Shown piece after piece: positions 12,251 through 31,851 of a stretch of 32,060 nucleotides of DNA. The position numbers and the translations under genes were made by a program. Under the pieces are notes generated by a model. The model worked only from the letters and a program-made list of their open reading frames with translations. It did not search any database and was not told the DNA's origin. This DNA is from Roseimaritima sediminicola. Lineage in GTDB: Bacteria; Planctomycetota; Planctomycetia; Pirellulales; Pirellulaceae. The stretch covers positions 1 through 32,060 of the forward strand of contig NZ_WIAD01000060.1 in assembly GCF_009618275.1 (NCBI RefSeq). Reading direction: 5' to 3'. Positions within the stretch are counted from its first letter, which is position 1, and the number at the start of each line of letters is the position of its first letter.

Positions 12251-12754
12251 CTAGACCAATCCAGCAGGTGGGCCGCGGGGGCCTTCGACGGACAGACGCA
12301 GCGAACGAGCGGCGGGACGCTCGGGAAGGCGTGCCAGACGCGCCGCAGCGGCTTTCTCAGACGCTTCGCAGCGAGGCACACAGACCGAGAGCAATCGCGT
12401 GGACAGCTGGCACAGCACGCACAGCCCGCCGGCGACCAGGCCGGGATCCTGAGCGAGGTGCGGTGAAGACGACGCCGGCTCTTGTTTCTTGTGCCCGGAA
12501 ACCTTGCGCCCGGAAACTTTGTCCGGTTCTGAGGTTCCGGTCGCCGCCGAGTCGCTGTGCTGGTCGTGACAGCAGCAGTCTTGTCCGCTGCCGGCCGACG
12601 CTTCACTGCCCGGTGTCGCGGTGGCGACGACAGTGTGGACGTGTCCGCAAGCGTCGCCCGAATGCGCAGCGTGATCGTGAGTCGCTGGCAGTAGCCAACC
12701 ACCCAGCAGATAGCCCAACAGGGCGATCGAGGCGATCAAGCGGCGGGAATTCAT
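12251..12754 (-). CDS. His/Cys-rich secreted protein, putative metal binder
   Basis: A 167-residue exported protein. The N-terminus MNSRRLIASIALLGYLLGGW is a clear signal peptide or anchor. The mature part has clustered metal-ligand residues: THDHAAHSGDACGHVH (about 25-40), DCCCHDQH (about 59-66) and GGLCVLCQL (about 109-117), plus a further cysteine pair in CVPRCE (about 125-130). The C-terminus is proline- and arginine-rich. The start codon overlaps the stop of the upstream Lnb-like gene as ATGA, indicating translational coupling. No enzymatic family is recognised. With the His-rich DUF1559 protein downstream, it suggests envelope handling of zinc or copper; this is inferred from composition and context. 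Confidence 0.75.
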   Translation of the reverse strand: MNSRRLIASIALLGYLLGGWLLPATHDHAAHSGDACGHVHTVVATATPGSEASAGSGQDCCCHDQHSDSAATGTSEPDKVSGRKVSGHKKQEPASSSPHLAQDPGLVAGGLCVLCQLSTRLLSVCVPRCEASEKAAAARLARLPERPAARSLRLSVEGPRGPPAGLV

Positions 12755-13704
12755 AGGGCGATGGCCGATTCAGGCAGGGACGCGGCGACGTGCGGCTGTC
12801 GTATCTTCCGAGAAAAATCGGGATCGTTCAAGTGTTGCCGGATCCGCATCGACACGTTAGCACGTTTGCGAGCTTCGGCGAAAGGCAGATCCGTTTGCAG
12901 CAAACCCAAGTCGTAAGCCATCGAATCGCTGTGCCCCGGCAGCAGGTTCCGGAGCGTGCTGGGCACCGCCTCGGGGGCCAGGTGATTGATGTGCTCGATC
13001 AGGTTCGTGGTGCAGTTGTTGGCGAGCGAGTCGTAGAACTCGGGGTGAGCGGCCAGTTGATTGGTCCTACGCAGGACGTGTCGTAACAGTTCGGCGGATT
13101 GTGCGGGCGTGGCGATCGATCGGTACAAATAGATCGCTTCATCCCGGCGATGCTCGGCGCGCAGCCCCAGCAGATCGGTTTCGTCGCCCAGCACGTACAT
13201 CAATTCGAACTGACGCACCGAACCGGCCACCGCACCGAACGATTCACCCCGCTGCAGCCGGGCTTCGATCGAAGCGACCAGGTGCCGCCCGTCGGCCAGT
13301 TCGAAGCTGAGCATCGTGTGGGCCAGCGACGGTGTGTTGGGAAACGGGACGACGATAAAATCGACCGCCCGCACATCGTCCCAAGCCACCTTCCAGTCGC
13401 TGTGCTTGACGATCGCATCGCTGTCCGACCGCCAGCGGCAGTGGCGGACATTGCGGATCGTCGCCCCTCGGGCGTCCATTTCGGCGTAGGCCAGCACGGC
13501 TTGGTGGGGTACCCAGTCGCGGTTCTGGCGCGGCGTGTCGGCGACCACTTCGGGCAGACTGCGCAGCACCCGCTCGGTCGACCGCAACGGACCACAGCCG
13601 CCGCACAGCATCGCCACCGGGGCCAGCACGACCGCGGCCAAAGCGAGCCGCCCGAGGCGGACCGGAGCCGAGCGGAAACGTTGATGAGCGGCGAGAGGAT
13701 CCAT
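12751..13704 (-). CDS. DUF4105 / Lnb N-terminal-domain protein
   Basis: A 317-residue envelope protein. A hydrophobic N-terminus (18-36) ends at a non-canonical lipobox-like LCGGC. The DUF4105 domain (Lnb_N, PF13387 by recollection) covers about 110-260: FIVVPFPNTPSLAHTMLSFE contains H129, and YDSLANNCTTNLIEHIN contains C231, the His/Cys pair expected of this thiol-dependent fold. Members include Lnb, the lipoprotein N-acyltransferase of Bacteroides, so N-acylation of lipoproteins or a related acyl or amide transfer is the natural hypothesis, without direct proof. The ATG at 13704 is preceded by GAGGGA; the longer frame upstream overlaps sdhB. Its stop overlaps the next start (ATGA), making it the first gene of a three-gene operon. 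Confidence 0.8.
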   Translation of the reverse strand: MDPLAAHQRFRSAPVRLGRLALAAVVLAPVAMLCGGCGPLRSTERVLRSLPEVVADTPRQNRDWVPHQAVLAYAEMDARGATIRNVRHCRWRSDSDAIVKHSDWKVAWDDVRAVDFIVVPFPNTPSLAHTMLSFELADGRHLVASIEARLQRGESFGAVAGSVRQFELMYVLGDETDLLGLRAEHRRDEAIYLYRSIATPAQSAELLRHVLRRTNQLAAHPEFYDSLANNCTTNLIEHINHLAPEAVPSTLRNLLPGHSDSMAYDLGLLQTDLPFAEARKRANVSMRIRQHLNDPDFSRKIRQPHVAASLPESAIAL

Positions 13705-13762
13705 AGCGATTCCCTCGCAAGAAACCCCCTTTGCAAGCAAGACCAGTTTTTGACGCCCCCCG

Positions 13763-13834
13763 GTAGCCGAAGTCGCCAGAGTAGCTCGGCTGTCCCAGCC
13801 GAGAGCTGCGCGGTCTACGGCTGGGACAGCCGTG
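13763..13834. repeat. dispersed palindromic repeat between sdhB and the Lnb-like gene
   Basis: An inverted form of the 24-bp dispersed repeat (13763-13782) runs into a hairpin whose arms are GTAGCTCGGCTGTCCCAGCC (13781-13800) and its near inverse at 13818-13834. The hairpin family recurs at 28206-28250 and 30743-30802. Placed 14 bp past the sdhB stop, it may serve as a transcription terminator. Confidence 0.75.
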
Positions 13835-13847
13835 CTTCTATCGTCGC

Positions 13848-14720
13848 CTAGCGTTCGAAGAACTTCTTCAGCTGGTACAGCGTGGTCGAACGGCCGGCCC
13901 GGGCGATCGAGCGGGTCAGGGGGATTTCCTTGGGGCAGACCGCGACGCAGTTCTGGGCGTTGCCGCAGACCTGGATGCCGCCGGCACTGCTCAGTTCCTC
14001 GTTCCGCTGGTCGGCCAAGGTCTTGCCCACCGGGTGGTTGTTGAACAGCATCGCCTGCGAGATCGCGTGGGCGCCGATGAACCCCTTGTCGTAGGCGGCC
14101 GCTTGCCGCGCCGCGAAGGCTTCGTCCGACTCGCCGTCTTCCTGTTCCAGTTCGATCTTCAAGTACTGCGGGCAGGCATCCAGACAGCACCCACAGCTCA
14201 TGCACTGGCTGAGCGGGTAGTTCTGTTCCTGCTGCTGTCGCGATTGCCGTTCACCCGGTCCCATGTCGTAGTAGCCGTCGACCGGCACCCAGCCCTTGAC
14301 TCGCTCGAGCGCGTGGAACAGGCGGCCGCGGTCGACCAACAGGTCGCGGATGACCGGGAACTTTCGCATCGGTTCCAGCACGATCTCGTCGGGCTGGTCC
14401 TCGACCAATTTGTCGACCAACGCCGTACAGCTCTGCCGCACTTTGCCGTTGATGACCATCGTGCACGAGCCGCATACCTCTTCCAGGCAGCCGCAATCCC
14501 AGGCGACCGGCGCCACTTTCTTGCCGTCGACCGTTTCGCTGATCGCAGCGATTCGCTGCAGGACACTGATCACGTTCATGTCCGGCTCGCGAGGCACGTC
14601 GAACAGTTGCCAGTAGGGCTCCTGCCCGGGGCCGTCTTGGCGGAGCACGCGAACTTTCAACATCTGGGCTTGGCGAGCGCCCGCGGCGGACGAGGTCGGA
14701 TTGGATTCTGGAGCAATCAT
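13848..14720 (-). CDS. sdhB: succinate dehydrogenase iron-sulfur subunit
   Basis: A 290-residue electron-transfer subunit of complex II that passes electrons from the SdhA flavin to the quinone site at SdhC. The N-terminal [2Fe-2S] ligands are in CGCLEEVCGSCTMVINGK and the following QSC. The C-terminal ferredoxin-like half has the CMSCGCCLDACPQ [4Fe-4S] motif and the CGNAQNCVAVCPKEIP motif for [3Fe-4S]. I chose the ATG at 14720, 13 bp after the sdhA stop; an alternative ATG at 14747 would overlap sdhA by 14 bp. It is the last gene of the sdhCAB operon. An insertion around DGYYDMGPGERQSRQQQEQN between the domains resembles the longer type found outside proteobacteria. Confidence 0.95.
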   Translation of the reverse strand: MIAPESNPTSSAAGARQAQMLKVRVLRQDGPGQEPYWQLFDVPREPDMNVISVLQRIAAISETVDGKKVAPVAWDCGCLEEVCGSCTMVINGKVRQSCTALVDKLVEDQPDEIVLEPMRKFPVIRDLLVDRGRLFHALERVKGWVPVDGYYDMGPGERQSRQQQEQNYPLSQCMSCGCCLDACPQYLKIELEQEDGESDEAFAARQAAAYDKGFIGAHAISQAMLFNNHPVGKTLADQRNEELSSAGGIQVCGNAQNCVAVCPKEIPLTRSIARAGRSTTLYQLKKFFER

Positions 14721-14733
14721 ACTTTCGTGCTTT

Positions 14734-16740
14734 CTATACCTTGGCATCCGAGCTGGATGAAGTGGACGGTTGCGTGTCGGAAGCTTCGGACTGGCGCCGG
14801 GCGGCGCGTTCGGACCAGACCTCTTCGATCACCTCCGCGCCGACCAACCCGTACAGGCGCGGGCGGGGCGGGATCAGCGAGGTGTCGACGTCCTCGTAGC
14901 TGAGCTGGGGTTGGTCGGAGGAGGCGTCCCACTTGGCGACGGTGGTCTTGAGGTACTTGCGGTTGTTCTCTTCAAACGCGTCGCACCACTGTTCGGCTTG
15001 ACGGCGACGTTCGGCCGGATCCTCGGCGGTCAAGCTGGGTTTGGTAAAGTCCGGTTTGAAGTGGGCCCCGCGGCATTCGTCACGCTGCAGGGCACCTTTC
15101 AAGATGCACTTGGCCAAGGGGAACATGTCCTGAAGGGCTTTGGCGAAGATCACGTTCTGGTTGGTCCACGAGCCGCTGTCCGACAGGTGCACCCGCTTGG
15201 CTCGCTGGTGCAGCTCGTCGACCGTCTCGATCGCCGACTGCAGTTGATCGTTGCGGCGGACGACCGTGGCGCTGCGGGTCATGACGTCGCCGAGTTCCTG
15301 GTGGATCAGGTAGGGGTTCTCGTCACCGGTGCCCTTGAGCAGTTCGTCGTGGCGAGTTTGTTGAGCCTTGACGGCCGACTCGAGCAGCGAAGCCGGGACG
15401 TCGCGGTAGGAGCCGCCGGCGCTCTGGGCGTAGGAGATCAGCGAGGGGCTGGCGAACAAGCCGGTGAAGATGCACGAGAGCAGCGAATTGGCCCCCAGGC
15501 GATTGGCGCCGTGGTAGTGATAATCGCACTCGCCCATCGCATACAGGCCCGGGATCCGCGTCATCTGATTCTGCGGGGCACCCGGCTCGAGGCCGCCGTC
15601 GGCCGAGCGAGCGTAGTCGGCCCACAGGCCGCCCATGCTGTAGTGCACCGCCGGGAAGATTTTCATGGGCACGTCGCGGGGGTCGACGCCCTGGAACTTT
15701 TCGTAGATCTCCAGGATCCCGCCCAGCTTGCGGTCCAGCTCGCGGCGTTCGATGTGCGTCAGGTCCAGGTACACGCACATCCGGTCCGGTTCGACGCTCA
15801 GGCCTTCATTGACGCACACGTCGAAGATTTCGCGGGTCGCGATGTCGCGCGGCACCAGGTTGCCGTATTCCGGGAAGTGCTCTTCCAGGAAGTAGAAGCG
15901 GTCCGAATCGGGGATGTCCTTGGGGGCCCGCGCGTCCTGGGGCTTGCGCGGCACCCACACGCGTCCGCCCTCACCCCGCGCCGACTCGCTCATCAGTCGC
16001 AGCTTGTCCGAACCCGGGATGGCCGTGGGGTGGACCTGGATAAATTCGCCGTTGGCATAATCCGCTCCGGCCTGAAAGCAGCGGCTGGCGGCGCTGCCGT
16101 TACAGAACACGCTCATCGTGCTGCGGCCGTAGACCAGGCCGCATCCGCCCGAGGCGACGATCACCGCGTCGGCGGGAAAGGCCCGGATCTCCATGCTGCT
16201 CATGTCCTGGGCCACGACGCCCCGGCACCGGCCGCTGTCGTCCTGGATCGGGGCCAGGAAGTCCCAGAACTCGAATTTGCGAACCAGCCCTTCGCTCTCG
16301 CGGCGCCGCACCTGTTCGTCCAGGGCGTACAGCAACTGCTGGCCCGTGGTAGCGCCGGCAAACGCCGTTCGCTTGTACAGCGTGCCGCCGAAGCGACGGC
16401 GGTCGATGAAGCCCTCGCCGGTGCGGTTAAAGGGCACGCCCAAGCGGTCCATCAGATCGATGACCTTGGGTGCCCAGTAGGCCATTTCCTTGACCGGCGG
16501 CTGGTGATTGAGGAAGTCGCCACCATAGACCGTGTCGTCGAAGTGTTTCCACTCGTTATCGCCCAGCTGGCGGGTCTGGTCGTTGCAGGCGTTGATACCG
16601 CCCTGGGCGCACACGCTGTGCGAACGTTTGACCGGCGTCAGGCTGATCAGGTCGACCGCCACGCCCAGTTCGGCCAGCTTCATGGTCGCCGACAACCCGG
16701 CCAGGCCGCCACCGACAACAACAACGCGATGAGCACTCAT
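14734..16740 (-). CDS. sdhA: succinate dehydrogenase flavoprotein subunit
   Basis: A 668-residue catalytic subunit oxidising succinate to fumarate on the cytoplasmic face. The Rossmann FAD motif VVVVGGGLAGLSA is at the N-terminus, and HSVCAQGGINA contains H41, the expected covalent FAD attachment histidine. The capping and active-site region includes GEFIQVHPTAIPG and the late HYHGANRLGANSLLSC. The length and the single-gene membrane anchor upstream match type B (fumarate-reductase-like) complexes as in Bacteroidetes, epsilonproteobacteria and Bacillus. The ATG at 16740 is 84 bp downstream of sdhC. A 674-codon open frame on the opposite strand is a GC-driven shadow. Confidence 0.96.
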   Translation of the reverse strand: MSAHRVVVVGGGLAGLSATMKLAELGVAVDLISLTPVKRSHSVCAQGGINACNDQTRQLGDNEWKHFDDTVYGGDFLNHQPPVKEMAYWAPKVIDLMDRLGVPFNRTGEGFIDRRRFGGTLYKRTAFAGATTGQQLLYALDEQVRRRESEGLVRKFEFWDFLAPIQDDSGRCRGVVAQDMSSMEIRAFPADAVIVASGGCGLVYGRSTMSVFCNGSAASRCFQAGADYANGEFIQVHPTAIPGSDKLRLMSESARGEGGRVWVPRKPQDARAPKDIPDSDRFYFLEEHFPEYGNLVPRDIATREIFDVCVNEGLSVEPDRMCVYLDLTHIERRELDRKLGGILEIYEKFQGVDPRDVPMKIFPAVHYSMGGLWADYARSADGGLEPGAPQNQMTRIPGLYAMGECDYHYHGANRLGANSLLSCIFTGLFASPSLISYAQSAGGSYRDVPASLLESAVKAQQTRHDELLKGTGDENPYLIHQELGDVMTRSATVVRRNDQLQSAIETVDELHQRAKRVHLSDSGSWTNQNVIFAKALQDMFPLAKCILKGALQRDECRGAHFKPDFTKPSLTAEDPAERRRQAEQWCDAFEENNRKYLKTTVAKWDASSDQPQLSYEDVDTSLIPPRPRLYGLVGAEVIEEVWSERAARRQSEASDTQPSTSSSSDAKV

Positions 16741-18359: not shown

Positions 18360-18506
18360 GGATTTCAATTTTCGCCGAAGTCAGCCGCGAACGATAAAAA
18401 GGTTTTGGGGGCCGATTCCCACGTGGTGCCGCCACGCGTTATCCTCATGAGGCGCAGTCGCGTCAGAAAACTCCCTTGCCCCATCCAGCTGCCAGAGCGT
18501 GTCCAC

Positions 18507-19838
18507 GTGATAGATGTCAAAGTTCCCACCGTCGGCGAATCGATCAGCGAGGTTCAAATCGGCCAGTGGCTTAAAGCCGAAGGCCAATGGGTTGACAAGG
18601 ACGAGGACTTAGTGGAGATCGAAACCGAAAAAGCTTCGGTTCAAGTTCCCTCGCCCGAAGCCGGATACCTGCGAAATATCAGCAAGCAGGAAGAGGAATT
18701 TGCTTCGGTCGGCGACGTGATCGCCGCTATCGAACCGGCGGCGGCTCCGGCCGAAGGTGGTGGAGCCGGCGGTGGCGAGAGTGGCGGTTCGGCGGCGTCG
18801 GACAAGGGCAATCAAACCGCTGCCGCGGTCGCTTCACCCGCCGAGTCCTCCGGTCCAAGTGCAGCGGGGCTGCCGGCCAGCGATGCACGCGGTGGCGGCG
18901 ATGCCACGGTGATGCCCGCCGCCCAGCGGTTGCTCGACGACCTGGGACTCAAAGCCGGCGATGTGCGAGCGACAGGTCCCGGGGGCCGGTTGCTGAAAGA
19001 AGACGTCCTGGCGCACGTCCAGCGGTCTGCTGCTTCCACCCCATCGGCTCCGGCCAGCAGCCCATCGGCGCCCGCCGGCGATGCCTCGGCTCGCCAGCCC
19101 GCCGTGGGCACGTCCCTGGTGACCGGCGCCAGCGGCCACCGCGGCGAAGAGGTCAAGCCGCTGTCGATGATTCGCCGCACGATCGCCAACCGCTTGGTCG
19201 AAGCCCAGCAGACGGCTGCCCTGCTGACGACGTTCAACGAAATTAATATGCAGCCGGTGATGGAGCTGCGTAAAAAGTATCGCGACGCGTTTGTCGACAA
19301 GCACGGCGTCAAACTGGGATTCATGTCGTTCTTCGCCAAGGCCTCGGTCGAGGCGCTGCGGCGTTTCCCGGCGGTCAACTCCGAGGTCCGCGGCAACAAC
19401 ATCGTCTTCCGCCAGTACTACGACATCGGGATCGCCATCGGTGGCGGCAAGGGGCTGGTCGTGCCGGTGCTGCGCAACGTCGAAGACATGAGTTTCGCGA
19501 CGATCGAACGCAGCATCGCCGAATTCGCCGAGTTGGCCGGCTCGAACCAGTTACAGCCGCAGGATCTGGAAGGCGGAACGTTTACGATCAGCAACGGCGG
19601 GATCTACGGTTCGCTGCTGTCCACGCCGATCGTCAACCCGCCGCAGAGCGGGATCCTGGGCCTGCACTCGATTCAGGAACGCCCCGTGGCCGAACGCGGC
19701 CAGGTGGTGATTCGGCCGATGATGTACATCGCGCTGACCTACGATCACCGCGTGGTCGACGGCCGCGAAGCGGTCACGTTCTTGAAAACCATCAAGGAAG
19801 TGCTCGAGGACCCGGCACGGCTGTTCCTGGAAGTCTGA
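18507..19838 (+). CDS. sucB: dihydrolipoyllysine-residue succinyltransferase (2-oxoglutarate dehydrogenase E2)
   Basis: A 443-residue E2 core of the 2-oxoglutarate dehydrogenase complex, transferring succinyl groups from lipoamide to CoA. The lipoyl domain (1-75) carries K42 in [13 protein letters not shown] Gly/Ala/Ser linker follows, then the peripheral subunit-binding domain ([14 protein letters not shown]...[11 protein letters not shown], about 135-170), another Ala/Pro linker, and the catalytic domain from about 215. The active-site H414 and D418 are in [12 protein letters not shown]. The ordinary GTG at 18507 begins right before the conserved [10 protein letters not shown]. The frame is open to 18405, but that would add a non-homologous leader. 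The E1 gene is not adjacent, an uncommon arrangement. Acetyltransferase E2 is the alternative; the DGREAV ending and single lipoyl domain favour SucB. Confidence 0.92.
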
Positions 19839-20069: not shown

Positions 20070-20822
20070 CTACCGCATGTCGCCACTCCGTGGCTGCTGT
20101 ACCGGTAAGGCTGCGGCATCGCTCACGGCCCTGCCGATCCGCTCACACCACGACCGCTGGGTGGTCGTGGCCAGCCGAGCGAAGCGGTTGTTGATCTCCA
20201 GTTCGATCCCCGCGTAACGCGTGTCGTCAAAGCGGCCGCGGAGCGTGGTGGTCAGCCCGTCGTCACAGCCGTGGTAGGGCCGGTTGGCGACCGCGTGCAG
20301 GCCGGCCCTGTTGAGCTGGTCGAGCAGACGCGTGGCCAGCTGCCGTTCCCAGGGCCGGTCGGGATCGAACAACACGCCCACGTCGAACCGCCGCTGCGTG
20401 CCGCGGTACCGGGGCGTAAAAGTGTGGATCGAAAGGTGCAGCACCCCACCGTTGGCTGCCCGCCGCCTGATTGCCGAGGTGACTCGCCGGCGATACGGCC
20501 GATAATAGGTTTGCAGGATGTGTTGCCGCCGAGCCGCAGCGCAGGAGCCGGTGAAACGCGAAAACAATTCCGGCGAGTCCTTGCTGCGGTTCAAATCGAC
20601 GACCAGCCGCGACACGGTGCTCAGCCACAGTGGGCAGGCGAGGTACGCGGCCAGAGCACGTGCAACGGTGAGCGCTCCCGGGTCGTATCCGCGATGGCTG
20701 CGCAGGGCCCGAGCCGCTCCGGCGGTGGCAAAACAGTCGCTCAACTCGTCCGGGACTTCGCATCCACCGTGTTCGCAGCTGAGGATGCACGTCGTGCCGA
20801 GCTGAGAATCGATCCGCGTCAT
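20070..20822 (-). CDS. N-formylglutamate amidohydrolase-like hydrolase
   Basis: A 250-residue metal-dependent hydrolase of the N-formylglutamate amidohydrolase (FGase/HutG) family, which cleaves N-acyl or amide bonds of acidic amino-acid derivatives. Family blocks appear in order: CILSCEHGGCEVPDEL (metal and substrate pocket), HRGYDPGAL, SRLVVDLNRS, LHLSIHTFTPRYRG with two histidines, and GIELEINNRFA near the end. The ATG at 20822 overlaps the stop of the GCS2-like gene as ATGA, so translation is coupled. No histidine-degradation genes are present, so a hut role is unlikely. The context suggests trimming or editing of an amide-linked product made by the two upstream ligases. Confidence 0.85.
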   Translation of the reverse strand: MTRIDSQLGTTCILSCEHGGCEVPDELSDCFATAGAARALRSHRGYDPGALTVARALAAYLACPLWLSTVSRLVVDLNRSKDSPELFSRFTGSCAAARRQHILQTYYRPYRRRVTSAIRRRAANGGVLHLSIHTFTPRYRGTQRRFDVGVLFDPDRPWERQLATRLLDQLNRAGLHAVANRPYHGCDDGLTTTLRGRFDDTRYAGIELEINNRFARLATTTQRSWCERIGRAVSDAAALPVQQPRSGDMR

Positions 20823-22078
20823 GGCAGCAACGGTTGGTCGTGCACCAGGCAATCGCCCAGCCGACGGTAGACCTCACGCAGCTTTTCCCGTGTCGGTTCG
20901 GCACCCAGGGCGTAGCGGATGCGGGTGGCCAGCGAACCGTGGTGGAGGATGATCTGCAGGGGGCTGATCAGCGCCTCGAGCGTCGCGTCTTGCTTTCGCA
21001 GTCGGCCCAGAAGTTCCGCCCACAAGTCGGCGGCGGTGATTTCCGGTTGGGTGATGCCGAAGAGGTTCAGGAACGCCGCATCGTCGATGACCGCCGCTTC
21101 GGCTTCCGTGGTGGTCTGGTCGAGCAACCGGCGCAGCGAAGCGGTCGAGGCGGCTTGCTGGGCGGCCGTGTCGCTCCATCGCTGGTCACATAACGCGCGG
21201 GCCGTGGCGGCGGCGGCGGCGCACAGGGCTAGGTCGGCCGAGGGGTATTCCTGGACGTCCATCACGCGGATTTCGATCGAGCCGCGGTCGAAGCGGGCAA
21301 TGGCTCCGCGGGCGTTGGCGAATTCCACTTGCAGCACTTCCTGGGGATCTCGCAGGCGGAGCGCAGCGGCGATCGGGCCGAGGATTTCGGCTTCATAGCG
21401 TGCTTGGTCGAAGATCGCTTCGGGGATCACTTGACCGGTCAGCGACGGGACTTCGCGGCAGTGATCGGCGTACAGCCGCATGCGAGTGTCGGCGGTGCTG
21501 CGAACGCGGCCTTCCAGGACGGGGCTGCTGGCCGCCAGGGCCGGCAGCAACGGCAACAGGATGCGCACCGCCGCGTGAAGGCGTGCGAACTGGTCGTCGC
21601 CGCGAAAGGGCAGATTCAAATGCACGCTCTGGACGTTGCTCCAGCCCGGAGTGTGGCAATTGAAGATGCGGTCGTAAGCTCGATAGATGTCGTGGCCGGC
21701 GTGGGGCCACAGGCAGGTTTCTCGGGCCGCATCCATCCAAGGATGCATGGCCGTGGGCAGCAGTTGCAGCTGGTACTGGTCGAGGATGGGCTGGAGATTG
21801 CCCAGGGCTTCGCGGAACCAAGGTCCGACCGAGCGTAGATCCTTGGCCGGATCGGTGGTCTTGCATTCCAGCACATGGGCGGCCAGTTCGTTGGACCAGG
21901 TGACCGGACCGCAAACGGCGTCGCACGCCCCGTCGCCGGCCAACTGCTCGAGCACGCGGTCCGCCCAGGGACGCACGTCCAGAGACTGGCGGTCGACCAG
22001 CATGTATTCCAGTTCCACGCCATGGACGTCGAACAGAGCGTAAGCCGATGGATCGCAATACGTGTCAGAGGATGGCAT
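20819..22078 (-). CDS. GCS2-type carboxylate-amine ligase (COG2170-like)
   Basis: A 419-residue member of the glutamate-cysteine ligase 2 family (YbdK-like). These enzymes use ATP and magnesium to activate a carboxylate and form an amide with an amine. The signature GVELEYMLVD is near residue 20, ELAAHVLECKT supplies acidic residues, SVHLNLPF matches the family's Q-x-H-x-x metal-site block, and GSIEIRVMDVQEYPSADLAL is the late conserved segment. The only ATG that fits is at 22078; no Shine-Dalgarno sequence is seen. About 215 bp with a hairpin repeat separates it from the upstream ATP-grasp gene, and its stop overlaps the next start. The substrate is unknown. Confidence 0.85.
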   Translation of the reverse strand: MPSSDTYCDPSAYALFDVHGVELEYMLVDRQSLDVRPWADRVLEQLAGDGACDAVCGPVTWSNELAAHVLECKTTDPAKDLRSVGPWFREALGNLQPILDQYQLQLLPTAMHPWMDAARETCLWPHAGHDIYRAYDRIFNCHTPGWSNVQSVHLNLPFRGDDQFARLHAAVRILLPLLPALAASSPVLEGRVRSTADTRMRLYADHCREVPSLTGQVIPEAIFDQARYEAEILGPIAAALRLRDPQEVLQVEFANARGAIARFDRGSIEIRVMDVQEYPSADLALCAAAAATARALCDQRWSDTAAQQAASTASLRRLLDQTTTEAEAAVIDDAAFLNLFGITQPEITAADLWAELLGRLRKQDATLEALISPLQIILHHGSLATRIRYALGAEPTREKLREVYRRLGDCLVHDQPLLP

Positions 22079-22094
22079 GTTCAAAAAGAAATCA

Positions 22095-22175
22095 TTTTCT
22101 CCCCTCTCCCCTGAATCCTGGCGAGCCTAAGCGAGTCAGGATTCGGGGGGAGAGGGGCCGGGGGTGAGGGGGATT
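22095..22175. repeat. hairpin repeat with core AATCCTGGCGAGCCTAAGCG
   Basis: Long imperfect hairpin: pyrimidine-rich TCTCCCCTCTCCCCTGAATCC pairs with GGATTCGGGGGGAGAGGGG across a loop that reads CTGGCGAGCCTAAGCGAGTCAG-like sequence. The same element lies inverted at 31760-31851. It sits inside the amide-ligase cassette, between the ATP-grasp and GCS2 genes, and could attenuate or stabilise the transcript. The rest of the gap to 22293 shows nothing else. Confidence 0.8.
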
Positions 22176-22293
22176 GCCGCGTGGCGCCTTCGTCTTTGTG
22201 TTCTGCTGAGTGATACGGGATACGTCAAATCTACACGGAGCGTGCGTTACATGCAGTTGCGCCGGAGGCCTCTCTCGCCGCCCAGCAGCTGGG

Positions 22294-23769
22294 TCAGTTT
22301 CGATTCGCCAGCACCTTGCTGGCTTCGATGCGGCGGACGAAGGATTCCATGATCCGGCGATACAGTTCTTCGCGCAGCACGGCGTCCTCCACGCCCGAGT
22401 CGAGGTTCGGGTTGTCGTTGACTTCGATGATGTAGAACTGGCCGGCGGATTCTTTCACGTCGACGCCGTACAGTCCGCTGCCGATCAGGTTGGCTGCTTT
22501 CAACGCCAGCGCGACGGCTTTGCGCGGCGCGGTTTCCACAGGCATGGTCTCGCAGCGACCGAAGCGGGGTTGGGTGCCGTCGCCGGAGTGTTTGGCGATC
22601 TGCCAATGGCCGCGAGCCATGTGGTACTTGCAGGCGAACAGCGGGCGTTGGTCGAGGATGCCGATCCGCCAATCGAAATCCGTCGGCATGAATTCCTGCG
22701 CGATCACCAGTTCGGAGTCGGCCAGCAGGTCGTCCAGAACGGACCGCAGCTCGTCGGCATCGTTGGCTTTCAGCACGCCCTGCGAAAACGCGCTGTCGGG
22801 TTTTTTCAGGACGCAGGGAAAGGCCGCGGTGGCGGCGAGCGCTTCGGCGTTGTGGCGGTGCACAACGGTGGTCCGCGGAGTCGGGACTTTGGCCCGGGCC
22901 AACAGTTCCGCCAGATAGACTTTATTGGTGCAGCGAAGGATCGACAGCGGGTCGTCGATCACGACCAATCCCGCCGCTTCGGCTCGCCGAGCAAGGTTGT
23001 AGGTGTGGTGGTTGACGGCCGTGGTTTCACGCATGAACAGCGCGTCGAATTCCAGCAACCGTCCGCTGTCTTCGTGGGTGATCAACTCCGCGGCGATGCC
23101 TTCCGCCGCGGCGGCCTTGACCAGTCGCTTCAGGGCGACCTCGTCCGACGGCGCCAATTGACCTTCGGCCGGGTTGTGAAGGATGGCCAGGTCGTAGCGA
23201 GTGGCGGGACGTTTCAAACGGATGGCCGACCGCGCCGCAAAATGCCGCTGGGCCGCGGCCGCGACGAATTCCCGGTGGGGCCCCGGCACCTCCTGCAGGG
23301 CAATGGCCGTGACGTTGCGCAGCCGCCACTTGCTGCGGTGCGAGAACGTAAATCGCAGTAGCGGAGCTTGGAACAGGCCGTACAGCGCGGTGGCCAAGCG
23401 GTCGTGTTTCTTGGCGAGGTTCTTGCCAAAGTAAACGCTCAGGGTGAACTCGGCCGATGTCAACGATCGAAAAGATTTTTGAATTAATTCGTCCAGAGAC
23501 TGCGGCACCAAACCGACGCCAGCCTCGGCCCGCAAGTCCTGGATCGTCATCACATCGGGGATCGGTCGCTGGCCGCGAGCTTCGGCCAACAGCGACACGT
23601 AGTACCCCAGGCTTTGGTAATCGTAAGATCGGCACAGGTTGTACACGCGCGTGCGCCGCCGAGTGGTTCCCGGCGACCCGGCCAGGTACTCCTCCGGCGA
23701 CAGCTTGCGCACGTCGTCGAAATCGCCCAGCCAATCGTCCTCGGATTCCGCGACCAGGATGTTTTTCAT
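22294..23769 (-). CDS. RLAN-domain RimK-like ATP-grasp ligase
   Basis: A 491-residue two-domain enzyme. Residues 1 to about 155 match the RimK-like ATP-grasp N-terminal (RLAN) domain, with YNLCRSYDYQSLGYYVSLLAEARG and TLSVYFGKN segments. Residues about 190-480 form the ATP-grasp ligase: DALFMRETT, the NKVYLAELLARAKVPTP entry, lysines in FPCVLKKPDSAFSQGV that contact ATP, the VIAQEFMPTDFDWRIGI block, and the metal-binding IIEVNDNPNLDSGVED (447-462). RimK relatives add amino acids to carboxylates as peptide or isopeptide bonds. The ATG at 23769 overlaps the C39-like gene's stop (ATGA), showing coupled translation. Confidence 0.9.
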   Translation of the reverse strand: MKNILVAESEDDWLGDFDDVRKLSPEEYLAGSPGTTRRRTRVYNLCRSYDYQSLGYYVSLLAEARGQRPIPDVMTIQDLRAEAGVGLVPQSLDELIQKSFRSLTSAEFTLSVYFGKNLAKKHDRLATALYGLFQAPLLRFTFSHRSKWRLRNVTAIALQEVPGPHREFVAAAAQRHFAARSAIRLKRPATRYDLAILHNPAEGQLAPSDEVALKRLVKAAAAEGIAAELITHEDSGRLLEFDALFMRETTAVNHHTYNLARRAEAAGLVVIDDPLSILRCTNKVYLAELLARAKVPTPRTTVVHRHNAEALAATAAFPCVLKKPDSAFSQGVLKANDADELRSVLDDLLADSELVIAQEFMPTDFDWRIGILDQRPLFACKYHMARGHWQIAKHSGDGTQPRFGRCETMPVETAPRKAVALALKAANLIGSGLYGVDVKESAGQFYIIEVNDNPNLDSGVEDAVLREELYRRIMESFVRRIEASKVLANRN

Positions 23770-24566
23770 CGGCGTGGTGCCGCCCGAGGTGTGTTTGTGG
23801 CTTCGGTGGCTTCGCCGGAAGGGGTGAGCGCCAGCAGGTTGGCGTCGTAGGTGAGGATGCCCAAATGGATCGAGGCGGCCACCTGCGACAGGGGTGCGGC
23901 GTACTTGCCGGTCGGAGCCAAGGGATTGGGGTGCAGCGGGTCGGCGATGAAGACCTGGCCGCTGTGATGGTCGTAACCGTGCAGGACCACAAAATGGCCC
24001 GTGGGTTCGCCCGCGATGTCGTCCTGAGTGCTGCTGATGCCGTGCCGATCGACCGCGTGGCTGCGTTCGCGGCATTCTTGATACAGGTACGTCGCACTCA
24101 AACCGCACAGCAGCGGGATGCCCTGCGTCAGCGACTGGACGATCAGTTGTTCATCCAGGGGCCGCATTTGAACTTGGCCGCCGAGCGACAGGAAACGCAG
24201 GTAGGATTGCGTCGACACCCGCAGACGATCCTGATCCAAATCGGTTCGCTGGCCCTTGGAGACCAGTTGTTGGCGAAGCTTGGCGGCCAGCAAATCCGAC
24301 TCGGCGGTTCCCGTCGCGGCGAACCAGGTGGGGTCGAACAGCTGGAGGTTATAGGTGTTGATGACCGCCCGGTAACCGCGGCTAAGCCCGTGGCAAGCCA
24401 ACTGTACGGCCATCGTCCCGCCACTGCCCAGCCGGCCGACCTCCTCGATCAAGTCGTTCAGCTCGACCGGGTCGTTCCAGTACTGATAGACGGCGGCCAA
24501 ACAGGTAGGGCCACAGCTGGAGTCGGTGGGTTGGGGCTGGATCTCCAGCTCCAGAGCGTGCCTCAT
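23766..24566 (-). CDS. C39-like cysteine peptidase / transglutaminase-fold protein
   Basis: A 266-residue papain-fold protein of the peptidase C39-like type. The N-terminal QPTDSSCGPTCLAAVYQYW carries C18, GHFVVLHGYDHHSGQVFIADP gives H191 and D209, completing the Cys-His-Asp triad. It has no transporter domains and no signal peptide from the chosen ATG at 24566, so it is probably cytoplasmic, unlike bacteriocin-exporting C39 proteases. A longer frame opens upstream, but its residues look non-coding. It is the first gene of the four-gene cassette, isolated from the upstream gene by a strong terminator, and its stop overlaps the ATP-grasp start. It may hydrolyse or transfer amide bonds on the cassette's product. 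Confidence 0.85.
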   Translation of the reverse strand: MRHALELEIQPQPTDSSCGPTCLAAVYQYWNDPVELNDLIEEVGRLGSGGTMAVQLACHGLSRGYRAVINTYNLQLFDPTWFAATGTAESDLLAAKLRQQLVSKGQRTDLDQDRLRVSTQSYLRFLSLGGQVQMRPLDEQLIVQSLTQGIPLLCGLSATYLYQECRERSHAVDRHGISSTQDDIAGEPTGHFVVLHGYDHHSGQVFIADPLHPNPLAPTGKYAAPLSQVAASIHLGILTYDANLLALTPSGEATEATNTPRAAPRR

Positions 24567-24691
24567 CGGCGTATTCGATGCAACGGTGACCAAGCCTGAA
24601 CAGACGCGACAGCCGCACAAACAACAGGTTGCTCCCAGTGGGAGCGGCGGAATTGTAGTCCGGCGACAAGTCCGCAAGTAGTCATAAAACG

Positions 24692-24724
24692 AAAAGATTC
24701 GGTTCCGAGGGAACCGAATCTTTT
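24692..24724 (-). terminator. strong intrinsic terminator, probably bidirectional
   Basis: A perfect 15-bp stem, AAAAGATTCGGTTCC at 24692-24706 pairing with 24710-24724, and a 3-nt GAG loop. The stem's A/T ends provide a short U-tract in either direction. It lies downstream of the Ala/Gln-rich gene (minus strand) and upstream of the C39-like gene, so it marks the boundary between the two transcription units. Confidence 0.85.
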
Positions 24725-24781
24725 CACACCTGTTCCAGCGTGGTTCACAAATTCGCCCGCCGTTGGGCGTACGCCTCTGCC

Positions 24782-26125
24782 TTAGCGAGCTGATCCGCTG
24801 GCTTTGCCCGCGGCGTTGCCTTGAGCGCGAGCGGCCGTCTGAGCCGCCGGCTGAGCGGCCGAACCGGCTTCGGCGCTGCCGCCGAACTGAGCTTGAGCTT
24901 GAGCTCGTGCTCGGGCCTGCGCTTGGGCTTGGGCTTGGGTCTGGCCGGCGGCTTGCATGGCGGCTTCGCCTTGACCCTGCACGCGGTTCTGAGCGCTGGC
25001 ACCGAACTGCGCGGCGGCGCTACCGGCCTGTTGAGCTTGCGCCGCAGCGGCGTTGGCCCCGGCCTGGCCGGCCGCGACGGCTCGTCCGCGGGCGTTCAGG
25101 GCGGCGGCACCGGCTGCGTTCGCTTGAGCGCCGGCCTGGGCTCGCAGCGATGCTTGCAGTTGGCTTTGCGCGTTGGCAAACGCGTCCAGACGCTGCTCCA
25201 GCTGGTCGGCTCGCAGCAGCAGTTCCGCACTGCCCCGCTCGATCGCTTCGTCACGCATCTGCGAGATTTCGGCCCGGCGTTGGCTCGCGGCGATTCGGAT
25301 TCGCGTCGCCAGATCCAGTTGACCGCTGAGCGTGGCGTTCTGGTTGGCGCCGCCCGACAGCACGGTGTTGAGACTGGACGATGCGGTACCGGCAGACTGG
25401 GCCGCGTCGTCCTGTTCTGGCGAAGCTGCAGTCGGTTGCGACTTTTCGGGAGCGGGGGCCGTGGGAGCCGCGTTGCTCGCTTGCTCGCCCGCGGTGGGCT
25501 GAGTGTCCTGACCGGCCTGAGCGTCCTGACCGGGGCGAGCGGCTTCCTGACGTAGCGGATTGAAGCGACCGAAGATGTTGTCGTACACCGCCACGTCGGC
25601 TTCGGTGATGCCTGGCGGAAGTCCGACCTGAGCGTTGGCACGAAGGTTCGCATTGGCTCCGGCGCCACCGCGAGCACCGCCCGCCGGACCGTGGGTTTGG
25701 CCGCCTGCACGAGCTCCGGCCGCTACGTTGGCTCCGACACCCAGCCGCAGGCCTCCGGCGGTTCGCAGGCCGCTGTCGCCGGCTTGTTGGGCGGCGCGAG
25801 CACTGCGCTGCGCGGCTTGGGCGGCGCGCTGGGCGACGGCCGCCGCGCGGCGCGCTTCGGCTTGCACGCGGGCTTGAACCTGACCCTGAATCTGGCTTTG
25901 GATCTGGTTCTGCACGCGGGCCTGGACTTGGGCTTGAGCCCGAGCCTGCACGCGCTGCTGCACTTGGGACTGGACGCGATCGGCCTGGGCGGCGGCTTGG
26001 GCGCGGCCTGCGGCACCGCCGGCGGCACTGCCTAAACCGCCCAGCCCCTGGGCGGCGACCGGTGCGGTGGGCAGGCACCAGGGCAACGCGCCCAACAACG
26101 CGGCCAGAATCGTTTTCTTCTTCAT
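24782..26125 (-). CDS. secreted Ala/Gln/Arg-rich low-complexity protein
   Basis: A 447-residue exported protein. The signal peptide MKKKTILAALLGALPWCLP ends near PVAAQG. Residues about 40-110 are built from RVQxQVQxR-type repeats (Gln/Ala/Arg), predicted as a long amphipathic coiled coil. A central ordered patch, LPPGITEADVAVYDNIFGRFNPLR (about 185-210), is followed by a Gln/Pro/Ala linker and a helical segment LDLATRIRIAASQRRAEISQMRDEA (about 280-310). The C-terminal third is again Ala/Gln/Gly repeats. GGAG lies eight bases upstream of the ATG at 26125. It is divergent from the TPR/beta-barrel gene and ends before a strong terminator. No enzymatic motif is present; a structural envelope or extracellular-matrix role is a guess. 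Confidence 0.8.
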   Translation of the reverse strand: MKKKTILAALLGALPWCLPTAPVAAQGLGGLGSAAGGAAGRAQAAAQADRVQSQVQQRVQARAQAQVQARVQNQIQSQIQGQVQARVQAEARRAAAVAQRAAQAAQRSARAAQQAGDSGLRTAGGLRLGVGANVAAGARAGGQTHGPAGGARGGAGANANLRANAQVGLPPGITEADVAVYDNIFGRFNPLRQEAARPGQDAQAGQDTQPTAGEQASNAAPTAPAPEKSQPTAASPEQDDAAQSAGTASSSLNTVLSGGANQNATLSGQLDLATRIRIAASQRRAEISQMRDEAIERGSAELLLRADQLEQRLDAFANAQSQLQASLRAQAGAQANAAGAAALNARGRAVAAGQAGANAAAAQAQQAGSAAAQFGASAQNRVQGQGEAAMQAAGQTQAQAQAQARARAQAQAQFGGSAEAGSAAQPAAQTAARAQGNAAGKASGSAR

Positions 26126-26307
26126 GCTCAAACTCCGTTTCGGGGGCATCCGTGTCGACAGCGAAGGCGTTTGCCGGTGCATCCTAACCTTCGGTGTTTC
26201 AGAGGATTCGGGATGGATTCGCCGTCCGAAATTTTGGTACTGGTCGGCTTCCACCTTGCGAACCTCACGGTGGTCTATACCGAATCGCCCGGGGCGAACG
26301 AAAGACG

Positions 26308-31759: not shown

Positions 31760-31851
31760 CGTTTTCTCCCCTCACCCCCGCCCCTCTCCCCCAAATCCTG
31801 ACTCGCTTAGGCTCGCCAGGATTTGGGGGAGAGGGGAGAAAACGATTTTTT
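31760..31851. repeat. hairpin repeat, inverted second copy, followed by T-run
   Basis: The inverse of the element at 22095-22175. GCCCCTCTCCCCCAAATCC pairs with GGATTTGGGGGAGAGGGG, enclosing CTGACTCGCTTAGGCTCGCC. TTTTCTCCCCTC at the left end also pairs with GAGGGGAGAAAA at the right. A run of six T follows, so it could terminate plus-strand transcription. Confidence 0.8.

Follow-up and report, generated by a model that had tools for sequence, protein, structure and literature searches.

Four adjacent genes on the minus strand of a 32,060-nucleotide stretch of the Roseimaritima sediminicola genome (contig NZ_WIAD01000060.1; the whole stretch is called the window below) form a cassette that is a real and widespread functional unit of two ligases and hydrolase-type enzymes. 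From upstream to downstream, they encode a C39-like papain-fold protein, an ATP-grasp ligase with RLAN and RimK domains, a GCS2-type ligase and an FGase-type protein. The order and strand of these genes recur far beyond chance in other genomes. A preliminary description of the window, made from the sequence alone, had read the genes as one unit in which two amide-forming ligases are joined by hydrolase-type enzymes, and strong synteny and co-occurrence among relatives now back this reading. The cassette and its gene junctions, all on the minus strand, are laid out as follows.

23766..24566, minus strand: C39-like papain-fold cysteine enzyme, candidate amidase/transpeptidase, 266 amino acids (Pfam Peptidase_C39_2, E 3.4e-12)
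23766..23769, minus strand: ATGA stop/start overlap of the C39-like and RLAN genes (from the sequence)
22294..23769, minus strand: RLAN plus RimK-type ATP-grasp carboxylate-amine ligase, 491 amino acids (Pfam RLAN, E 5e-46; RimK, E 4e-12)
20819..22078, minus strand: divergent GCS2-type (glutamine-synthetase fold) carboxylate-amine ligase, about 419 amino acids (Pfam GCS2, E 4.2e-25)
20819..20822, minus strand: ATGA stop/start overlap of the GCS2-type and FGase-type genes (from the sequence)
20070..20822, minus strand: FGase-type amidohydrolase candidate, 250 amino acids, accessory member (Pfam FGase, E 1.9e-27)

The Pfam matches bear out the four families that had been named for these adjacent genes, and the ATGA overlaps claimed for the first and second and for the third and fourth genes were found in the sequence. 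The GCS2-type gene ends with a stop at 20819; ATG at 22078 is its likely start, and TTG at 22084 is an alternative. All four proteins are probably cytosolic, since inspection by eye found no obvious signal peptide.

The cassette is conserved as a unit

To compare gene neighbourhoods, we used the 80 best-matching RLAN relatives out of at least 585 in GTDB genomes, so that the figures concern the relatives nearest to the query. All four genes were present at 40 of these 80 loci. The C39-like, RLAN and GCS2-type genes were kept in one order and on one strand at 61 loci, 40 with and 21 without the FGase-type gene. The other loci held RLAN and GCS2 (7 loci), RLAN alone (7), C39 and RLAN (3), or RLAN, GCS2 and FGase (2). 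Since several loci stop at a contig end, the gene absences are upper bounds. At all 80 loci the profile matches lay on one strand, and their median spacings were about 26, 29 and 17 nucleotides, the second being the RLAN-GCS2 distance. The possibility that the four genes rarely occur together, raised in the preliminary description, was not borne out by this comparison, which showed strong co-occurrence.

Loci with the C39-like, RLAN and GCS2-type genes span 13 phyla, and loci with all four genes span 10. The range includes planctomycetes, Bacteroidota, Pseudomonadota, Nitrospirota and Spirochaetota, and the cassette is also present in Verrucomicrobia. Its genes occur in named isolates, for example Blastopirellula marina, Pontibacter and Thiobacillus thioparus. 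A plasmid record of Legionella adelaidensis carries RLAN, GCS2 and FGase; its RLAN match begins at the start of the record and misses roughly the N-terminal 46 residues of the query.

Within the same class, 32 of the 148 genomes searched carry RLAN. About 16 kb was fetched around each of the other 31 class RLAN genes (L040, L049 and L053 being shortened by contig ends). Of these 31 loci, 28 have a C39 relative upstream and 26 have a GCS2 relative downstream, while an FGase relative lies close by in 12. Across the class genomes, cassette-type genes were called by bit score (GCS2 above 500, C39 above 300, FGase above 190), whereas at E 0.001 the cassette profiles also touch other genes (GCS2 in 44 genomes, C39 in 30, FGase in 24). 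With profiles built from cassette members, the cassette-type GCS2 genes scored 565 to 639 bits against at most 43 bits for other GCS2 genes, and the cassette-type C39 genes scored 308 to 384 bits against 23 bits for the others. The cassette-type GCS2 was present in 31 and the cassette-type C39 in 30 of the 148 genomes, all of them among the 32 genomes with RLAN. Genome G029, which has a divergent RLAN, lacks both, and G023 lacks C39. Fisher tests uncorrected for kinship gave 4e-31 for RLAN with GCS2 and 2e-29 for RLAN with C39; at the genus level the GCS2 value was 1e-18.

The genes are retained even where they are no longer adjacent. Genome G128 keeps its C39, RLAN and GCS2 genes on three separate contigs, and G136, G146 and G120 keep GCS2 at a distance from RLAN. 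Near such scattered single genes we found no further or shared protein partner, as judged by eye from the open reading frames (ORFs) and by family searches on a few of them. Of the 31 genomes that hold both RLAN and GCS2, 19 have the FGase type, linked in 13 and elsewhere in 6, and one class genome (G075) has it without RLAN. Because of the co-occurrence in the class genomes and the presence of FGase in only 19 of 31, the C39-like, RLAN and GCS2-type genes are the core of the cassette and the FGase-type gene is an optional accessory. A gene set that is kept in order across distant phyla, even when its genes drift apart in some genomes, must do something worth keeping.

The distance matrices of the four protein trees were correlated (r 0.58 to 0.76; none of 999 permutations was as high) after removal of rows that contained stops or had less than about 76% of the length of the window protein; this correlation shows shared descent, not function. 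The RLAN tree was built by a quick method from 100 of 112 rows, with 12 planctomycete near relatives left out, and a third of its inner branches are weak. In the tree, the nearest relatives of the window protein are those of Rhodopirellula (L067) and Rubripirellula (L070). The 15 loci without a linked GCS2, including those of four class genomes with GCS2 elsewhere, are scattered over the tree and require 13 changes; repeated loss or separation therefore fits better than one older lineage. The phylum labels require 27 changes, where the least possible number is 14, and this excess fits some horizontal transfer, although the labels are far more clustered than shuffled ones.

Clustering of neighbouring ORFs of at least 90 amino acids, to which 120 loci contributed, did not find a fifth conserved gene: no family occurred at more than 10 loci. 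In clustering of small ORFs near 111 loci, the eight largest clusters each covered at most 5 loci, all of one genus, and at most loci the gaps between the cassette genes are too short for a small ORF. This agrees with the earlier statement that the cassette has no obvious precursor peptide. A graspetide or other ribosomally synthesized and post-translationally modified peptide cluster was rejected, as no precursor peptide gene recurs near the 111 loci. Anti-phage defence was also rejected: the four proteins had no PADLOC match at E 0.01.

The ligases and the hydrolase-type enzymes

The RLAN protein contains both of its expected domains, with 156.5 bits to PF14401 (gathering threshold 25) and 46.6 bits to PF08443 (gathering threshold 21). 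Its residues K322, D437, E449 and N451 are conserved in all 112 aligned members; by family analogy, we take them to be catalytic or metal-binding residues of the ATP-grasp fold. The predicted structure (pLDDT, the model's own confidence score, 88.2) matches RimK, ArgX, LysX and D-Ala-D-Ala ligases (Ddl). The 50 best fold matches are all ATP-grasp ligases of the RimK, ArgX/LysX, Ddl and DcsG kinds, so the fold search is uninformative on the RLAN domain. By sequence, the protein aligns with ATP-grasp ligases from about residue 230 onward. Thus alignable with RimK and LysX/ArgX, and sharing their modelled fold and conserved ATP-grasp residues, the cassette ligase differs from them in its N-terminal RLAN domain, in its scores below the RimK cut-off (79.2 of the 143.4 bits of TIGR00768) and the LysX cut-off (LysX being its second best NCBIfam match), and in that no S6 or LysW gene was seen in the cassette. 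None of the four cassette proteins reached an NCBIfam cut-off.

For the GCS2-type protein, the G-x-E-x-E signature (G21, E23 and E25, counting from the codon at 22081) is present in 91 of 93 aligned members, and the other two have gaps there. Escherichia coli YbdK (1r8g) is its only PDB relative by profile. It shares the GCS2 family and this signature with the YbdK family (TIGR02050), but 13 of the 20 cassette genomes tested have a separate, better-scoring GCS2 copy. A passage of PMC2588565 assigns the signature to the Mg/ATP site.

The C39-like protein keeps Q12, C18, H191 and D209 in 89 to 90 of 90 aligned members. Its predicted structure (pLDDT 88.8) matches papain-type folds, namely the pseudomurein endoisopeptidase PeiR, a C39-like peptidase and PCAT peptidase domains, and more weakly (E 1.4e-3) Alr0975, a phytochelatin synthase with glutathione as its substrate; the query TM-scores of these fold matches are moderate (0.37 to 0.48). 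By its Cys-His-Asp triad and its modelled papain-type fold, the protein is a C39-like papain-fold enzyme. With phytochelatin synthase and C39 peptidases it shares this fold, the triad and the CGP active-site motif, but it lacks a transporter fusion and a conserved precursor, and the Phytochelatin Pfam model matches only 1 of 33 cassette C39 members, weakly. The traits of C39 bacteriocin peptidases were absent: the protein stands alone with 266 amino acids, it has no ABC transporter fusion, and the small-ORF clustering near 111 loci found no widely conserved small ORF that could be a double-glycine precursor.

The FGase-type protein scored 97 bits against PF05013 (gathering threshold 28.9), and its best PDB relative is 2odf (Atu2144). 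E17, H18, H43, D47, H129, H133, R144 and E209, its putative active site, are present in all 50 members, and we presume from family analogy that they bind zinc or take part in catalysis. On another contig of the same genome (L166, 1753-5524; G000:C88), a further FGase gene lies beside MATCAP/DUF1704-type and glutathione-synthetase-like ATP-grasp genes in a separate amidoligase-like cluster.

Proposed pathway and alternatives

The shared gene order across distant phyla points to a common pathway for the assembly and trimming of a tag or a small peptide-like compound. Ligases of the glutamine-synthetase fold (GS-fold) and of the ATP-grasp type make amides by way of acyl-phosphates, and glutathione synthesis uses one ligase of each kind. 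We tentatively propose, at somewhat short of an even chance, that the cassette is a conserved pathway module in which two ATP-dependent ligases build a small gamma-glutamyl-type compound and the papain-fold enzyme acts on it as an amidase or transpeptidase. The GCS2-type ligase would activate a carboxylate for coupling to an amine; the gamma-carboxyl group of glutamate is the likeliest candidate. Acting like RimK or LysX/ArgX, the RLAN ATP-grasp ligase would then add a further amino acid via a second acyl-phosphate; we infer this order of the two ligases. The product would be a small gamma-glutamyl-type di- or tripeptide or amide made in the manner of glutathione. The C39-like enzyme might cleave or transpeptidize the iso-amide bond, and the FGase-type enzyme, where present, might remove an N-acyl or glutamyl group in recycling or final deprotection. 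The earlier proposal that both hydrolases edit the product found no support, given that FGase is optional and that C39 is missing in 7 of 9 genomes with a C39-less RLAN-GCS2 locus.

Several observations weigh against a module of this kind. RLAN stands alone at the 7 loci mentioned above. Among ten genomes of the 80-locus sample whose RLAN locus lacks GCS2, the cassette-type GCS2 was found elsewhere in 2 and nowhere in 8, and C39 was also missing from 7 of these 8. Nine genomes have RLAN and GCS2 linked but no C39 next to them; seven of these hold no C39 at all, one holds a fragment, and one holds C39 at another place. Nearly all of these genomes are metagenome-assembled genomes (MAGs) of unstated completeness; the title of one, Nitrosomonas sp. 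Nm166 (L096), gives it as an isolate. Since 8 of the 10 GCS2-less genomes hold no cassette-type GCS2, the RLAN ligase may function without the other cassette members, or the assemblies may be incomplete. RLAN also occurs in a second context, paired with a GNAT enzyme in the absence of GCS2, and none of the cassette neighbours seen indicates a named metabolite.

The main alternative is protein modification. The RLAN ligase could modify a cellular protein by the addition of an amino acid, much as RimK modifies ribosomal protein S6, with the GCS2-type ligase extending or attaching the modification and the C39-like and FGase-type enzymes removing it. The structural matches of the ligase, which include RimK and the RimK-RpsF complex (5zk6), are consistent with this, as are the occurrence of RLAN alone and beside GNAT enzymes and the RLAN-less ATP-grasp relatives that are preceded by GNAT on viral contigs. 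Furthermore, a passage of PMC2588565 places the Pup ligase PafA in the superfamily that contains GCS2. However, the ORF clustering found no conserved tag or target gene nearby, and inspection by eye found no shared protein partner near the scattered copies. We consider protein modification fairly unlikely. Whichever holds, the outcome would be new, a common metabolite in the one case and a protein modification in the other, and with two amide ligases and named isolates carrying the genes, the question is directly testable.

A bolder form of the small-compound proposal is that the product is an undescribed, widely used gamma-glutamyl-type cofactor, a functional analogue of glutathione in at least 13 phyla, and even a thiol in Planctomycetes, Verrucomicrobia and Spirochaetes. 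In a passage of PMC6282198, a low-molecular-weight thiol is neither documented nor predicted for these three groups. We regard such a cofactor as unlikely. The cassette is present in about a fifth of the class genomes examined and also occurs in phyla with glutathione or bacillithiol; the thiol is therefore a bold reading only.

In another alternative, the ligases would block a toxic or reactive amine, or an intermediate of the amino-acid type, by turning it into a gamma-glutamyl or aminoacyl amide, and the two hydrolases would then take off this cap. The putrescine route of PuuA and PuuD and the carrier route of LysX and ArgX are models for such protective capping. The presence of two ligases alongside two amidohydrolase-type enzymes would suit it, and ArgX and LysX are close structural matches of the RLAN protein, LysX ranking second among its NCBIfam matches. 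GNAT, an N-acylating family, accompanies GCS2-less RLAN at some loci, once (L111) between argG-like and lysA/dapA-like genes. Yet this last context is a single case. Since no neighbour family exceeds 10 of the 120 loci, there is no conserved enzyme that would act on the capped intermediate, nor do the small ORFs around the loci, to which the comparison was confined for LysW, include a conserved LysW-like one. We regard protective glutamylation as quite unlikely.

A role in ordinary glutathione or histidine metabolism, in which GCS2 would serve as GshA and FGase would serve as HutG, was suggested by the family names and by a glutathione-synthetase-like ATP-grasp gene on another contig of the same genome (209.7 bits; gshB cut-off 272), but it is highly improbable and was rejected on unmet family cut-offs (GCS2-type protein, 50 bits against 176 for TIGR02050, YbdK, and 38 against 249 for TIGR02048, cyanobacterial GshA; FGase-type protein, 22.3 against 278.75 for TIGR02017, HutG), on the separate and better GCS2 match elsewhere in the genome (194 against 90 bits) and on the scarcity of gshB, which is above its cut-off in 1 of the 148 class genomes, outside the 32 with RLAN. 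The preliminary description had named such ordinary roles as a reading that would undo its proposal, and scores this far below the YbdK and HutG cut-offs argue against them. The GshA/GshB route shares with the cassette the combination of a GS-fold ligase and an ATP-grasp ligase; it differs in that the cassette ligases score far under the family cut-offs and in that the cassette has an extra RLAN domain, a dedicated C39-like enzyme and an optional FGase.

We recognized no description of the cassette association or of its product in the literature compared, to which a survey by Iyer et al. (2009, Mol Biosyst) did not belong. That survey reportedly covers ATP-grasp, GS-fold and GNAT amidoligases together with peptidases, and it may already list the association. 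We know of no experimental product for such amidoligase neighbourhoods.

Related arrangements and surroundings of the cassette

On plasmids of Tistrella and Azospirillum, the gene before RLAN encodes a DUF3335 protein, which is another C39-like domain. In Tistrella, a family search showed DUF3335 fused to GNAT; the Azospirillum protein clusters with this GNAT-DUF3335 protein and has its DUF3335 match in the same open frame. These pairs resemble the cassette in that an RLAN ligase lies next to a C39-like domain whose triad and other motif residues are collinear with those of the cassette C39 (the profile match is weak, E 0.001, probability 22), and the DUF3335 model is touched by 6 of 33 cassette C39 members. 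They differ in the GNAT domain and in having neither GCS2 nor FGase within the fetched stretch. RLAN and a C39-like enzyme may thus be a reusable pair with varying amide-forming partners, which is suggested here as a lead only. DUF3335 was found in these two plasmid records among 22 genomes or records tested and in none of 7 genomes with neither GCS2 nor C39, which leaves the idea of an exchange between GCS2 and GNAT weak.

GNAT formed the largest neighbour cluster, at 10 of 120 loci. It lies directly upstream on the same strand in eight of them (L061, L064, L066, L111 and L149-L152), on the other strand in L065 and just downstream in L134. In the verrucomicrobial MAG L111 (738-6270), GNAT and RLAN lie between the argG-like and lysA/dapA-like genes, which were named by eye. 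The viral contigs L147-L152 carry an ATP-grasp relative without RLAN; a GNAT-like gene directly precedes it in L149-L152, and in L147 the preceding gene looks by eye like a terminase. A gene for a fusion of GNAT with a carbon-nitrogen hydrolase (nitrilase) lies near the cassette at five loci, downstream on the same strand in L067 (9901-11517), L033 (10912-12513) and L108 (9751-11337) and on the other strand in L133 and L052.

Two repeats flank or interrupt the cassette in the window.

24691..24725, minus strand: perfect inverted repeat with 16-nucleotide arms (24691-24706 and 24710-24725) and a 3-nucleotide loop, probable terminator of the upstream gene (from the sequence)
22101..22147, minus strand: dispersed 47-bp palindromic repeat between the RLAN and GCS2-type genes (genome pattern search)

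The preliminary description had reported a perfect 15-bp-stem terminator that isolates the cassette from the upstream gene. The perfect repeat stands, with arms measured at 16 nucleotides; its role as a terminator is plausible from the sequence, and a consensus terminator scan did not list it. The scan found 2 sites in the region, and shuffled controls gave an expectation of 4.7. The palindromic repeat lies in the RLAN-GCS2 intergenic gap, which is about 215 nucleotides in the window, and it may explain the length of this gap in this copy. Its core is GAATCCTG...CAGGATTC, and a second copy lies near the window end (31790-31836). The genome has 131 matches to the pattern at up to 3 mismatches (68 forward and 63 reverse, some places matching on both strands), and the reversed control of the pattern gave no match in the same genome.

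The gene upstream of the cassette (24782-26284) encodes a product very rich in Ala, Gln and Arg that has no Pfam match. Further away in the window, a frame with an Lnb_N domain adjoins iron-sulphur and flavoprotein subunits of the succinate dehydrogenase/fumarate reductase type (12751-16740), and a sucB-type gene lies on the other strand at 18405-19838.

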